From: Nonomuraea sp. SYSU D8015
Lineage (GTDB): Bacteria; Actinomycetota; Actinomycetes; Streptosporangiales; Streptosporangiaceae
DNA: 64,000 bases
NCBI RefSeq assembly: GCF_008065375.1
Contig: NZ_VJYI01000023.1
Span: 62,001 to 126,000 of the forward strand
Reading direction: 5' to 3'
In this document: positions 28,750 to 62,012 of the stretch, in pieces
Layout: each line of letters opens with the position of its first letter
Position numbering within the stretch: position 1 is the stretch's first letter
Program-made: the position numbers and the translations under genes
The notes under the pieces: generated by a model
Databases searched by the model: none
What the model was told of the DNA's origin: nothing
What the model saw: only the letters and a program-made list of their open reading frames with translations

Positions 28750-28843
28750 CCTCGCAAAGACCCTCGAGAAGGAAACCCAGCGACCTGATCGCCCAACTCC
28801 AGGCCCTCGGCCACAAGGTCACCGTCGAACCGATGGCCGCCTG
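28750..28843 (+). pseudogene. Probable transposase C-terminal scrap
   Basis: The plus frame ends SDLIAQLQALGHKVTVEPMA A-stop, which resembles the last residues of several actinomycete transposases. There is no start and only about 25 meaningful codons. The family is not certain. Confidence 0.3.
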
Positions 28844-28871
28844 ACCCGAACTCCCCACGTAACTCTGACCG

Positions 28872-28879
28872 ATGATCCT
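28872..28879. repeat. 8-bp target duplication, left copy
   Basis: ATGATCCT directly outside the left inverted repeat; it recurs at 33037-33044 outside the right one. Confidence 0.8.
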
Positions 28880-28950
28880 CCAATGCCGCGAAGTTAAGGA
28901 TCTTCGAGGTTCTTCAAGGGGCTGAGGGTGTGATCGTCGGCACAGTGCGT

Positions 28951-29086
28951 CGGGGCCGGGCATGGGACGAGACCTTTGCTATGCCGGGGTGGTCCGTCCG
29001 AAGATCCGTCCCGGAGCCGAGGTTTCGTTGCTGCCCAAGTCTGCCAGGTCTGTAGTTGTCGAGGTTGTGCGGAGGGTCCAGGTTGC
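28951..29086 (+). repeat. 136-bp direct repeat, left copy (transposase 5' end)
   Basis: Matches 31318-31453 with two differences seen by eye. It contains the ATG and first 42 codons of the IS4 transposase (MGRDLCYAGVVRPKIRPGAE...). After it the frame continues into unrelated sequence, so this copy is a stub. Together the copies bracket the passenger genes. Confidence 0.9.
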
Positions 29087-29239
29087 GCTTTCGGTGTCCG
29101 AAGGCGCGGCGGGGTTGATGGTCACGGCCCCGGCATCGTCGCCGCCGTCGCGGCGCCGGTCTTGGCGGTGCTGGCCGAGCTCAGACGCCCTCGCGCCGGG
29201 TTTGCGTTCGAGCGCGCTCAAAGCCCTAGCGTCGTCGCC

Positions 29240-30100
29240 ATGACGACACAGACCTGGATCATCACTGGCGCGTCCCGCGGGTTCGGGCGCGCACTGGCGG
29301 AGTCGGCGCTGGAGGCGGGCGACAACGTGGTGGCGGCGGTGCGCCGGCCCGACAGTGTGGCCGACCTGCGGGCCACCCATCCGGACACCTGCCTGATCAC
29401 GAAGTTCGACGCCCGAGACGTCGCCGCGGCCTCGGATCTTGTGGAGGAGACCCTCGACCGCTTCGGTCAGCTGGACGTTCTCGTCAACAACGCGGGGCGA
29501 GCCGTTGTCGGCGCGGTCGAGGAGGTCGGCGACGCGCAGTTGCGGGAGCTGATGGAGCTGCACCTGTTCGGCCCCGCCGCGCTCGTCCGCGCGGCGCTGC
29601 CCGCGATGCGCGCGCGGGGCACCGGGACGATCGTGCAGATGAGCAGCCAGGGTGGGCGGATGTCGTTCCCCGGGGTGTCGACGTACTCCGCGTCGAAGTT
29701 CGCCCTCGAGGGCTGGTCGGAGGCCCTGGCCGGGGAGGTCGCACCGTTCGGGATCCGCGTGATGATCGTCGAGCCCAGCCGGTTCAGGACCGAGTTCAAC
29801 GCCGCCGACGTGCTCGAGTTCGCCGAACCGTCCGAAACGTACCGCGACGTGCTCGCCGCCGTCCGCGCGGACATGGCCGGGGCCAACGGCCGCCAGGAAG
29901 GCGACCCGGCGCGGGCGGCCGAGATCATCGTGTCCCTCGCGCACGATGAGGAGGTGCCGCTGCGGCTGCCGCTCGGGCGCGAGGCGGTCGAACGTATCTC
30001 GGGCGTGTACCGGCGAGGCCTGGAGGATGTCGAGCGGTGGGCCGAGACCGCCCGCAGCGCCGACTTCGCCGGCGTCCCGGCATCGGTCCGGCCGATTTAG
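29240..30100 (+). CDS. SDR-family NAD(P)-dependent oxidoreductase (passenger gene)
   Basis: 286 residues from ATG MTTQTWIITGASRGFGRALA. Rossmann motif TGASRGFG, then LDVLVNNAGRA, Ser in QMSSQGGRMSFP and the catalytic YSASK: all classical SDR features. It resembles the subgroup with TWFITGTSRGFG starts, as does the second SDR at 41955-42785. The substrate is unknown. It lies inside the IS4 element, 154 bp after the left direct repeat, and is followed 11 bp later by a MerR gene, so the three passengers form an operon. Confidence 0.92.
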   Translation: MTTQTWIITGASRGFGRALAESALEAGDNVVAAVRRPDSVADLRATHPDTCLITKFDARDVAAASDLVEETLDRFGQLDVLVNNAGRAVVGAVEEVGDAQLRELMELHLFGPAALVRAALPAMRARGTGTIVQMSSQGGRMSFPGVSTYSASKFALEGWSEALAGEVAPFGIRVMIVEPSRFRTEFNAADVLEFAEPSETYRDVLAAVRADMAGANGRQEGDPARAAEIIVSLAHDEEVPLRLPLGREAVERISGVYRRGLEDVERWAETARSADFAGVPASVRPI

Positions 30101-30111
30101 GGTTGGCTGTC

Positions 30112-30684
30112 ATGGCCACCGACGAGCTGATGAGAAAGGCGCTGGAAGCGCTCCGGGACGACGGCCCGCCCTCGGTCGAGGCGATCCACCGCCTCACTGA
30201 TCTGGGCGGCGTGCACGAGCCCATGATGATCAATGAGGTCGCCGACCTCCTCGATATCTCGCCCCACACGCTGCGCTACTACGAACGGGCCGGGCTGGTC
30301 GAGGTGGCCCGCGACGGCAACGGTCACCGCCTCTACGACGCCGAGGCGGTGCGGCGCCTGGTGTTCCTCACCCGGATGCGGCTGGCCGGCATGCCGATGC
30401 GCGACCTGCAGCACTACATCACGCTCGTCGAAGCCGGGAAGCACACGGTGCCCGAGCGGCTCGACATGCTGATCGAACATCGCGACACCATCTGCCGGCG
30501 GATCCGTGAGCTGGCCCTTTCCCTCACGGCGGTCGAGTACAAGATCGCCACCTACGGGGGCTGGACCGGACCGGACGTCCAAGATCTCGACACCGCCTTG
30601 CCGCGCGAGCCGCAGCGGCGAACGCAGGCCGCAGGAACCGACAAGAGAGGAGCCGGCGAGCGTGCGGATGGCGGACCTGAGTGA
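30112..30684 (+). CDS. MerR-family regulator 1 (passenger gene)
   Basis: 190 residues. A 37-residue N-terminal extension comes before the MerR winged helix (about 38-105): MMINEVADLLDISPHTLRYY, ERAGLVEVARDGNGHRLYDA, LVFLTRMRLAGMPMRDLQHY. A coiled coil follows (VPERLDMLIEHRDTICRRI). The C-terminus is hydrophilic and lacks cysteines, so metal sensing is not suggested. It overlaps the next MerR gene by 23 bp from the GTG. It probably senses the SDR substrate or a related compound (inference). Confidence 0.9.
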   Translation: MATDELMRKALEALRDDGPPSVEAIHRLTDLGGVHEPMMINEVADLLDISPHTLRYYERAGLVEVARDGNGHRLYDAEAVRRLVFLTRMRLAGMPMRDLQHYITLVEAGKHTVPERLDMLIEHRDTICRRIRELALSLTAVEYKIATYGGWTGPDVQDLDTALPREPQRRTQAAGTDKRGAGERADGGPE

Positions 30685-31264
30685 GCAGACCGGAGTCTCG
30701 GTCCCCACGATCAGGCTCTACCTGCGGGAGGGCCTGCTTCCTCCAGGTCGGTCCGCGGCACGCGACCAGGCCGAGTACAACGCCGCGCACGTCCGCAGGC
30801 TCAAGCTCGTACGCACACTCGCCGAGTACGGCGATCTCAGCATCGCGATCATCCGTGACCTGATCGCGCACCTCGACGACCCGGAGGCCGGCGGCGGAGA
30901 TCTCCTGGGCATCGCCCTCGCCGTGACCGCGCGGCACCACCCCCCGCCGCCGGGCCCCGGCCGTGACGCGGCCGAGGGCATCGTGGACAACCTGCTGCGG
31001 CGCCGGGGGTGGACGGGCCTCGGCCAGCATCCGACGCGGCAGGCCCTCATCGGGCTCGTGACCAGCCTCGCGGAGCTGGGCCGCGAGGACATGCTGGAGG
31101 TTTTCGACGACTACTGCGCGGCGGCAGAGCGGGTGGCCGAGGCCGACCTGCGGGCCGTCGGCGACCCGCGCGACCGTGGGCGCGCGTTGGAGATCGGGGT
31201 GCTCGGCGACGTCGTCCTGGCCGCGCTGCGCCGGGCCGCCCAGGCGCACAAGCTGACCGGGTGA
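30662..31264 (+). CDS. MerR-family regulator 2 (passenger gene)
   Basis: 200 residues from the GTG at 30662, which has AGAGGAG nine bases upstream; the ATG two codons later is the alternative. The winged helix (about 1-70) reads VRMADLSEQTGVSVPTIRLY, LREGLLPPGR, RRLKLVRTLAEYGDLSIA, as in the MerR group that starts near residue 1. The C-terminal domain is helical, with no cysteine cluster. It overlaps regulator 1 in another frame, a tandem MerR arrangement that I do not know as a common pair. Confidence 0.88.
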   Translation: MRMADLSEQTGVSVPTIRLYLREGLLPPGRSAARDQAEYNAAHVRRLKLVRTLAEYGDLSIAIIRDLIAHLDDPEAGGGDLLGIALAVTARHHPPPPGPGRDAAEGIVDNLLRRRGWTGLGQHPTRQALIGLVTSLAELGREDMLEVFDDYCAAAERVAEADLRAVGDPRDRGRALEIGVLGDVVLAALRRAAQAHKLTG

Positions 31265-31317
31265 CTGTGCGGAGCGCGCCGGGACCGATCGGGCGAGGAG
31301 ATCGTTTTGCCTAGAAT

Positions 31318-31453
31318 CGGGGCCGGGCATGGGACGAGACCTCTGCTATGCCGGGGTGGTCCGTCCGAAGATCCGTCCCGGAGCCGAGGTCTCGTTGCTG
31401 CCCAAGTCTGCCAGGTCTGTAGTTGTCGAGGTTGTGCGGAGGGTCCAGGTTGC
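31318..31453 (+). repeat. 136-bp direct repeat, right copy
   Basis: Second copy of 28951-29086; here the frame continues into the complete transposase. Differences from the left copy are seen at the GACCTC/GACCTT and GGTCTC/GGTTTC positions. Confidence 0.9.
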
Positions 31454-33002
31454 CGGCGGTGTTTTCGCGCCGGGGCATCTGGGCGAGTTGACGCAGGTGG
31501 TGCCGTTCGAAATGGTCGATGCCGTACTGGAGGCAGACCGGGACGACCGAGCGGCGGCTGCGGTCGCTGCCGTCGCGGGGGGTGTCTACTTCATGCTGGC
31601 GTTGGGGCTGTTCGAGCAGATGGGCGCCGCGCTGGTGTGGCAGAAGCTGGTCGCGGGCCTGGCTGGGTTGCCGGTTCCGGCCCCGTCGGAGAAGGCGTTG
31701 CGGGATCTGCGCCGCCGGATCGGAGCGGCCCCATTGAGGGCCTTGTTCGAGGTGTTGGCCGTCCCGCTGGCGCGACCGTCCACACCTGGGGTGCGGTATC
31801 GGCGGTGGCGGACGGTGGCCTTCGACGGGTGTGCGTCCTTGCGGGTCCCCGACCGGGAGGCCAATCGTGGCTGGTTCGGCAGGCTCAAAGTGAGGTTCGG
31901 GGTGGCCGGGTATCCGTCCTTAATGCTGATGACGCTCGCCGAGACCGGCACCCGAGGGCTGCTCGGGGCGATCTTCGGCCCCTCGGCCACGGGTGAGCGT
32001 GCTTACGCGATGAGATTGGCGCCGCTGCTCGGCCCGGACATGCTGCTGCTGGCCGACCGCGGTCTCGATGGCAACGACCTGTTGGAAGCGGTGACCCAGA
32101 CCGGTGCACAGTTCCTGGTCCGGGGCAGGACCGACCGGCGGCCGCCGGTTCTGGCCCGGCTGCGCGACGGCTCCTACCTGACCCGGATCGCCGGCCTGAA
32201 GCTGCGGGCGATCGAAGCCGACATCACCGTGACCGGCACGGACGGCACCTTCGTGACCAGCACCTACCGGCTCCTGACCACCCTGACCGACCCGCACACC
32301 GACCCCGCCGCGACGCTCGTGGCCTTGTATCACGAACGCTGGGAGATCGAATCGGCCTACTACGCGCTGCGCCACACCCTCCTGCACGGGCGAGTCCTGC
32401 GCTCCAAGGACCCCGCCGGGATCGAGCAGGAGATGTGGGCACTGCTGGCCCTCTACCAGGCCCTGCGCCACGCCATGGTCACCGCGGTCGAGACCATGCC
32501 GGGCACCGACCCCGACCGGGCCTCCTTCACCACCGCACTGGCCGCCGCCCGCGACACCGTTACCGCAGTCGTCGGCGTCCTGCCCACCTCCGACACCGGA
32601 CGGATCACCACCGCCGTCCTGACCAGCCTGCTCCCACCCCGCCGGCCACGCTTCAGCGCTCGCACCGTCAAATCCGGTATCTCCCGCTACCACACCTGGA
32701 ACGCCGGAAACCGTCCCCTGGCCAGCACGAACATCCCCAACATCGCGATCATCATCGGCCAAGGCGCCCCAACCCAGCCACACGATGACGACACCCCCGC
32801 CACCTATCCTCCGGGCCCCACGATCGTCCTGGCCATCATGCAGGCCACACCAGAACACTCCTGGCGCGCCCGCGACCTCGCCCGCAGATCAGCGGCAAGA
32901 AACCCCTCGACGCCTTCTGTACCCGGATGGCGAAATGGGCCAGCCAAGGACTCCTCACCAAGACCGGCCCCGCAACCTACAAGATCTCATCCCAGACCTT
33001 GA
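31329..33002 (+). CDS. IS4-family DDE transposase
   Basis: 557 residues as read. The N-terminal domain FAPGHLGELTQVVPFEMVDA is typical of actinomycete IS4 transposases. The DDE core shows AFDGCASLRVPD, LLADRGLDGNDLL (second Asp) and YHERWEIESAYYALRHTLL, the Y-(2)-R-(3)-E signature with the catalytic Glu. After RARDLARRS (near 32885) the frame seems shifted: the neighbouring frame reads AFCTRMAKWASQGLLTKTGP and then ATYKISS before a stop near 33020, as in relatives. So the last roughly 40 codons are altered, while the catalytic part is whole. It may still be active. Confidence 0.88.
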   Translation: MGRDLCYAGVVRPKIRPGAEVSLLPKSARSVVVEVVRRVQVAGGVFAPGHLGELTQVVPFEMVDAVLEADRDDRAAAAVAAVAGGVYFMLALGLFEQMGAALVWQKLVAGLAGLPVPAPSEKALRDLRRRIGAAPLRALFEVLAVPLARPSTPGVRYRRWRTVAFDGCASLRVPDREANRGWFGRLKVRFGVAGYPSLMLMTLAETGTRGLLGAIFGPSATGERAYAMRLAPLLGPDMLLLADRGLDGNDLLEAVTQTGAQFLVRGRTDRRPPVLARLRDGSYLTRIAGLKLRAIEADITVTGTDGTFVTSTYRLLTTLTDPHTDPAATLVALYHERWEIESAYYALRHTLLHGRVLRSKDPAGIEQEMWALLALYQALRHAMVTAVETMPGTDPDRASFTTALAAARDTVTAVVGVLPTSDTGRITTAVLTSLLPPRRPRFSARTVKSGISRYHTWNAGNRPLASTNIPNIAIIIGQGAPTQPHDDDTPATYPPGPTIVLAIMQATPEHSWRARDLARRSAARNPSTPSVPGWRNGPAKDSSPRPAPQPTRSHPRP

Positions 33003-33036
33003 CAGACCAGCAAGATCCTTAACTTCGCGGCATTGG

Positions 33037-33044
33037 ATGATCCT
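33037..33044. repeat. 8-bp target duplication, right copy
   Basis: ATGATCCT directly outside the right inverted repeat, matching 28872-28879. Confidence 0.8.
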
Positions 33045-33136
33045 CAGCCAGGATGTGCCCTGCCGCCCGCCTGGCTGAGGTTGATTCACGTGTCAGCGCG
33101 CCGCGATTCGGCAGCGGTATCGGTGCTCGGGAGCGG

Positions 33137-61887: not shown

Positions 61888-62012
61888 GAGGATGGCCTGT
61901 GGGACCGTCGCGCCCGGCTCCCGCAGCACGCCATCCCGTCGGGCGTTCGCCCCGGGCGGCCGCGAGGCTGTGCCGCAGCTGGATGACGCCGGCAGGCCGG
62001 CCAGCAGGATCA

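Follow-up and report, generated by a model that had tools for sequence, protein, structure and literature searches.

Small insertion sequences (IS) are usually thought to carry a transposase alone; does the IS4-type element at 28881-33035 of the DNA analysed here also carry, and has it moved, an operon of host genes? The DNA is a 64,000-nucleotide stretch of contig NZ_VJYI01000023.1 of Nonomuraea sp. SYSU D8015 (positions 62,001 to 126,000, hereafter the window), in which a first-pass annotation, made from the letters alone, had described a passenger operon of an SDR oxidoreductase and two MerR regulators within the ends of an IS4-type element. Our analysis indicates that the unit is probably an IS4-type element with passenger genes that is, or was, mobile as a whole; its most likely identity is that of a streamlined composite transposon. 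It spans 4155 bp (28881-33035) instead of the 4157 bp (28880..33036) drawn previously, and is bounded by perfect terminal inverted repeats of 24 bp: CAATGCCGCGAAGTTAAGGATCTT at 28881..28904 on the forward strand and its exact reverse complement at 33012..33035 on the reverse strand. The first-pass annotation was right that the inverted match is perfect; its length of 25 bp had counted in one flanking base per side. Immediately outside the ends stands the 10-bp sequence GATGATCCTC, at 28871..28880 and again at 33036..33045 (no strand assigned), where a target duplication of 8 bp had been proposed. A perfect 24-bp inverted repeat with a matching outer 10-bp direct repeat is far beyond chance.

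Relatives of the transposase agree with these boundaries. Among 80 loci (the best 80 of 388 transposase relatives, among them several copies from one genome), 53 have paired ends and an exact duplication of at least 8 bp, which is 10 bp long in 48, 9 bp in three, 11 bp in one and 8 bp in one. The base just outside the ends varies from copy to copy in these relatives, the 10-bp duplication being the constant feature, and the 8-bp reading was dropped because exactly 10 bp are duplicated both here and in the 48. PMC2266710 tabulates a target duplication of about 10 bp for the IS4 family, which the window unit has, and for the IS4 subgroup ends in -AATR with direct repeats of 10-13 bp; the CAATG ends and 10-bp repeats of the unit fit both. 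The transposase reading frame (31329..33002, forward strand) matches Nterm_IS4 (PF13006, E 8e-19) and DDE_Tnp_1 (PF01609, E 1e-11) and scores 118.9 bits with NF033592 against a cut-off of 115, in agreement with the earlier assignment to the DDE transposases of IS4 type. By eye, the signature Y-(2)-R-(3)-E-(6)-K is present at Y, R and E in the window and in relatives such as L056, with R for K; relative L127 has K. The closest of the 80 by E-value is that of Streptomyces sp. NBRC 110611 (L055), at 65% identity.

The borders between the IS and its cargo are marked by a 137-bp direct duplication, absent from the first-pass annotation and detected both by a repeat finder and by blast of the unit against itself, whose copies differ by 2 mismatches. 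The left copy (28950..29086, forward strand) comprises the transposase leader and 5' end and closes the 206-bp left part of the IS (28881..29086, forward strand), which runs up to the cargo breakpoint; the right copy (31317..31453, forward strand) stands in front of the transposase. In 341 family genomes, with the best two candidates per genome scored, this left part matches only here and at the duplicate at 31317-31453. The copies enclose 2230 bp of cargo, and 1788 bp remain when the cargo and one copy are taken away from the unit. Since 49 of the 53 paired relatives measure 1499-1847 bp (the larger four being L073, L096, L082 and L127), the remainder is that of an ordinary IS4; it exceeds the 1400-1650 bp of the IS4 subgroup, a range that is typical and not strict. 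In three relatives (L061, L067 and L071) the leader is interrupted by an in-frame stop, so that translation of the transposase probably begins close to where the 137-bp repeat ends; if so, the leader would be retained by both the left IS part and the transposase.

The cargo appears to be a mosaic of an MFS-gene fragment and an SDR-MerR1-MerR2 operon, all on the forward strand. The MFS transporter gene fragment (29087..29172), another feature that the first-pass annotation did not contain, is fused upstream of the SDR gene; the homology (29085-29172) is to the front part of a full MFS gene at locus L164 (MFS_1, E 8e-40), adjoined there by a TetR gene, and the MFS gene region of about 1.9 kb is common to the own genome (C13) and three others (G250, G261 and G222). 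The SDR-family oxidoreductase (29240..30100; 286 aa, open frame; PF00106, E 2e-46) does not reach the cut-off of any of the 25 families listed (of 219). It is followed by MerR1 (30112..30684; 190 aa), which is NmlR-like but below the curated cut-off, and by MerR2 (30668..31264; 198 aa), whose start overlaps the end of MerR1. Domain matches confirm all three genes reported beside the transposase; the detoxification role suggested for them is a guess from family names. The ratio of nonsynonymous to synonymous substitution between the window and its relatives, a plain Nei-Gojobori count on chosen relatives in which three of the eight MerR1 sequences have a stop in the frame read, is 0.21-0.34 for SDR (seven relatives), 0.30-0.68 for MerR1 (eight) and 0.58-0.59 for MerR2 (two): selection is purifying on SDR and weaker on both regulators.

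The classical form of a MerR promoter is a 19-bp spacer with a central dyad. DNA upstream of the SDR gene is mostly unrelated among loci, save for TTGCGT, 19 bp and TAGCGT (with single-base variants) just before the SDR start; the anchor for this comparison was found in 46 of 49 loci, two of which (L043 and L160) are one place. The dyad TTCGAGCGCGCTCGAA, kept in the window, sits in the 19-bp spacer, and its core GAGCGCGCTC is exact in 43 of the 46 rows, differs by one base in two and is absent in one. The conserved element, at 29202..29232 (forward strand) in the window with the dyad TTCGAGCGCGCTC(G/A)AA, is a predicted MerR-type promoter, and its retention makes it likely that the cargo is self-regulated.

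The same fused cargo occurs in a second species (G141:C8) at 98% identity, in three blocks, decayed and starting inside the MFS fragment. In the search of 341 family genomes, the match running from MFS into SDR was obtained only in the own genome (G000) and G141; G075 has one weak 60-nt match touching the MFS-SDR border region. The last element of the decayed G141 promoter reads AAGCGT, and the two gaps in the G141 cargo are of nearly equal length (343 and about 354 nt). The cargo there sits in a 5924-bp insertion (L160:829-6752) with an IS4-like left end, CAATGCCGGGAAGTTAGGG; the right-end tip CGCGGCATTG stands behind the last cargo block, the left end being 5.9 kb upstream. Another candidate end, CAATGCC at L160:5905, lies inside the hydrolase gene without a matching flank and was treated as chance. 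The insertion separates a yigZ-like gene (UPF0029) from a chorismate-binding gene (menF-like; names by eye and from Pfam), which are 0-105 bp apart in 27 of the 28 readable junctions of relatives (29 loci), the exception being the own genome, where a 1.3-kb gap holds another gene and no IS ends were seen. Between G000 and G141 the two neighbouring genes share 87% and 90% identity and the cargo 98%, a difference that suggests horizontal transfer. The G141 unit also carries an ABM monooxygenase, a partial aldo/keto reductase, an AraC-type regulator, a MerR-SDR pair and an alpha/beta hydrolase. Because the same fused module lies between IS4-like ends in both genomes, the comparison suggests that the fused cargo has travelled with IS4 ends more than once.

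A further unit, in Actinoallomurus iriomotensis (L127:4807-8427), appears to be a third, independent passenger-bearing IS4 unit with another mode of capture: 3621 bp long and flanked by a 10-bp target duplication, it holds, beside an epoxide hydrolase, AsnC/Lrp-type regulator sequence in two overlapping reading frames, and at its outer left end stands a 102-bp inverted copy (98%) of its own right end. The window and Actinoallomurus units look like composite transposons with one IS copy shrunk to an end, which would explain the direct 137-bp overlap of the former and the inverted end of the latter. Other oversized units were rejected as cargo carriers. The inner gene of a 3569-bp unit in G274 (L247:1758-5326, with a full 10-bp target duplication) is an ISAzo13-type transposase; that of L082 is a Mutator-type transposase, which we take to be IS256-like; L073 and L096 (2.07 and 2.15 kb) seem, by eye, just to have longer transposase C-termini, with an apparent extended C-terminal domain. 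On two plasmids of Streptomyces chartreusis (NZ_CP108842.1 and NZ_CP108821.1; H2 and H3), a related IS4 transposase is seemingly split by a group II intron (ltrA). Only L127, among the 53 paired relatives, carries host-type genes, in agreement with the earlier description of such passengers as rare, yet passengers between left end and transposase are documented in the IS231 subgroup (PMC2266710).

These features lead to the following proposal. Two copies of one 1.79-kb IS4, in direct orientation, would once have flanked the SDR-MerR1-MerR2 operon. Deletions would then have stripped the left IS copy of its right part and the right one of its first 69 bp, leaving a single left and a single right end, one transposase gene with its leader, and the 137-bp overlap at both cargo borders. 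Transposases of the IS4 family act by cut-and-paste; here the enzyme would recognise only the outer ends, move all that lies between them and generate the 10-bp target duplication. The cargo's own MerR-type promoter, to judge from its conservation, may allow expression wherever the unit landed.

The cargo genes have a history of their own. SDR-MerR1 homology spans about 29191 to 30597; of the 53 other genus genomes (best five candidates per genome), 24 match most of it at 80-91% identity and others have decayed pieces; in other genera (best two candidates) identity falls to 74%. When up to 1400 bp per side were compared, the flanks of 42 SDR-MerR1 loci fell into 37 left and 37 right groups, and the pair seems to behave like a wandering module. 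Promoter and coding sequence stay 74-91% identical despite the differing neighbourhoods, and decayed copies are frequent (loci L024-L042 and L136-L158). Short IS4-end words near these loci (six left and two right), which are scattered at about 790-1330 bp, seem to be chance occurrences, and a search that covered IS4-end words only revealed no terminal structure common to the native copies. MerR2 is linked to an SDR-MerR1 locus at two of 49 places (53 table rows) and usually lies elsewhere: a remnant stands downstream of MerR1 in G231 (rows L137 and L167), a copy stands directly behind an SDR stub in G254, and L140 and L160 have weak matches to other MerR genes only. From the linkage in G231 and G254, the trio looks like an old chromosomal operon. 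The own genome has a second SDR-MerR1 copy (L002, G000:C2:940634-941472; 86%), in which SDR is mostly missing and MerR1 open; the IS-borne copy is open throughout, in contrast to this decayed one. A related SDR-MerR pair (67%) is found on a Tsukamurella plasmid (H1, NZ_LR134459.1).

Empty counterparts of the insertion site were found in repeats. The joined flanks match across the junction in G141:C9 (84%) and G255:C577 (81%), and a match in G265:C509 also spans it; homology around the site extends about 180 bp, and the matches represent further copies of a short repeat and not this locus itself. This repeat (28753-28880 and 33041-33099), which occurs in other genomes of the genus, has an inverted repeat at 33034-33088 and could itself be the terminus of a different mobile element. 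The exact 24-bp end was found only here among 345 genomes of the order, of which seven match with at most 2 mismatches; as a 25-mer, the exact end was likewise found only here, with matches at up to 2 mismatches in three of 250 family genomes and at up to 3 mismatches in two of 54 genus genomes. Related ends about 1.5 kb apart occur in G272, and a weaker end match in L020 (G032). Plasmid records gave 129 partial matches, none of which covers 80% of the unit in one place. The DNA searches scored the best 2-40 candidates per genome (own genome 40, joined flanks 13, flanking genes 5), and absence from them is not proof. The passenger claim of the first-pass annotation is supported by the empty target in repeats elsewhere and by the same cargo between IS4-like ends in G141. 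The searches gave no instance of the genes at this locus in the absence of the ends, and, on the question of whether such ends enclose only a transposase, the exact ends are confined to this unit in the order genomes, but passenger units with related ends exist (L127 and L160).

Several observations weigh against movement of the unit as a whole. The exact unit was found once, so that the movement of this very unit is without a second instance, and capture is rare, with one case in the 53 paired relatives. The transposase frame is broken near its C-terminus by a frameshift missed in the first-pass annotation: the window has 7 nt fewer than L055, L056 and L058, the last ~38 residues are out of frame relative to the relatives, and an ending of the relatives' type is readable in another frame of the window. 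L055 is seemingly out of frame near its own end too; because L056 and L058 are open there, we read the frameshift as a lesion of this copy, which weakens the case for its being active and leaves that for its descent untouched. No second full copy was found in the own genome among the 40 of 766 candidates scored, the other transposase match being a 233-nt stretch at C4 (73% identity), and together with the frameshift this makes current activity of the element doubtful. The G141 unit has no match to the window transposase; its left end beyond about 20 bp is that of another IS4 type, and its right tip comprises only about 10 bp. Its outer flanks, ACTGATCATC and CCTGATCATC, agree in 9 of 10 positions, but CTGATCA is natively present at the nearest empty sites, in two tandem copies in G250 (L203) and three in G261 (L204), so that the flank repeat is ambiguous and does not amount to a clean target duplication. 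Other short tandem repeats occur at the same yigZ-like/menF-like junction in relatives (for example L214, L216 and L218). As a module lacking IS ends, the SDR-MerR1 pair is common in chromosomes and thus does not depend on the window element. Lastly, a target duplication also arises if a plain IS landed and took up its cargo later.

That last possibility can be framed as a full alternative, which we consider rather unlikely: an ordinary 1.79-kb IS4 landed first and the operon recombined into it afterwards, for instance when a circle bearing a 137-bp IS piece integrated through a single crossover, so that the whole never moved as a unit. Such an integration yields exactly a 137-bp direct duplication at both cargo borders, the target duplication belongs to the outer ends whichever came first, and the single copy of the unit and the ambiguous flanks in G141 are as this route would have them; the same fused cargo at the unrelated G141 site, however, would need a second independent capture, which is less likely, and L127 shows that passenger-bearing IS4 units with outer target duplications arise elsewhere. 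It is also unlikely, though compatible with movement by the IS4 ends, that the cargo is mobile alone, through frequent horizontal transfer or some other mechanism, and that the ends are incidental. The many flank groups of the 42 loci, the related pair on the Tsukamurella plasmid and the chance appearance of IS4-end words beside SDR-MerR1 loci are consistent with that idea, but the MFS-SDR fusion was matched only in the two IS4-bracketed copies, and no shared terminal structure of native copies was seen with IS4-end words as the query. An assembly artefact around the 137-bp repeat is highly improbable: the genome is in 71 contigs and such a repeat could mislead an assembler, but the unit is internal to a 191-kb contig, the candidates scored from the genome include no second full IS copy, and another assembly has the same cargo between IS4-like ends.

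If the unit is indeed a streamlined composite transposon, genes can probably travel by cargo-carrying IS4 elements in actinobacteria. The 137-bp overlap here and the 102-bp inverted end in Actinoallomurus show in their anatomy how an IS4 might turn into a carrier of genes, and cargo units from two species, together with empty sites, are available for comparison. Should this be general, actinobacterial enzyme-regulator modules could spread without plasmids or integrons, and would be missed by annotation that ends at the transposase. A broader proposal, which we offer tentatively and regard as doubtful, is that an actinobacterial modular lineage of the IS4 subgroup repeatedly captures and exchanges self-regulated enzyme modules (MerR, AraC or Lrp-type regulators with SDR, hydrolase, monooxygenase or epoxide hydrolase), as a second modular branch beside IS231, here re-supplying an oxidoreductase operon decayed in the chromosome.

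Among known systems, passenger-carrying IS are called transporter IS, a term used for IS1595; the window unit resembles them as a single IS with host genes inside its ends, and differs in family and origin. Mobile insertion cassettes consist of ends and cargo without a transposase, a description that suits the G141 unit, in which IS4-like ends enclose cargo and nothing matches the window transposase, better than the window unit, which has a transposase of its own. In the titles and abstract openings listed from the open-licence literature searched, there was no report of passenger-carrying IS4-subgroup elements in actinobacteria. PMC2266710 names mobile insertion cassettes, as well as the IS4-family composite transposons Tn5/IS50 and Tn10/IS10. 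Like the latter, the window and Actinoallomurus units place cargo between copies of one IS4-type IS, of which the 137-bp repeat and the 102-bp inverted end are remnants; unlike them, the window unit does not have two complete IS copies, but one transposase, one pair of ends and a 137-bp partial copy. A further parallel is the modular IS231-MIC231 elements of the Bacillus cereus group, for which the same paper describes passenger genes between the left inverted repeat and the transposase, and direct repeats of 10-12 bp. The window unit likewise has its passengers between left end and transposase; it differs in its CAATG ends, which are of the IS4 subgroup, in contrast to the CAT.. ends of the IS231 subgroup, in its actinobacterial host, in a cargo of SDR and two MerR genes, and in the 137-bp duplication at the cargo borders. 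Passenger modules to the left of the transposase are thus already known in the IS231 subgroup, and the element described here is a variant with IS4-subgroup ends.

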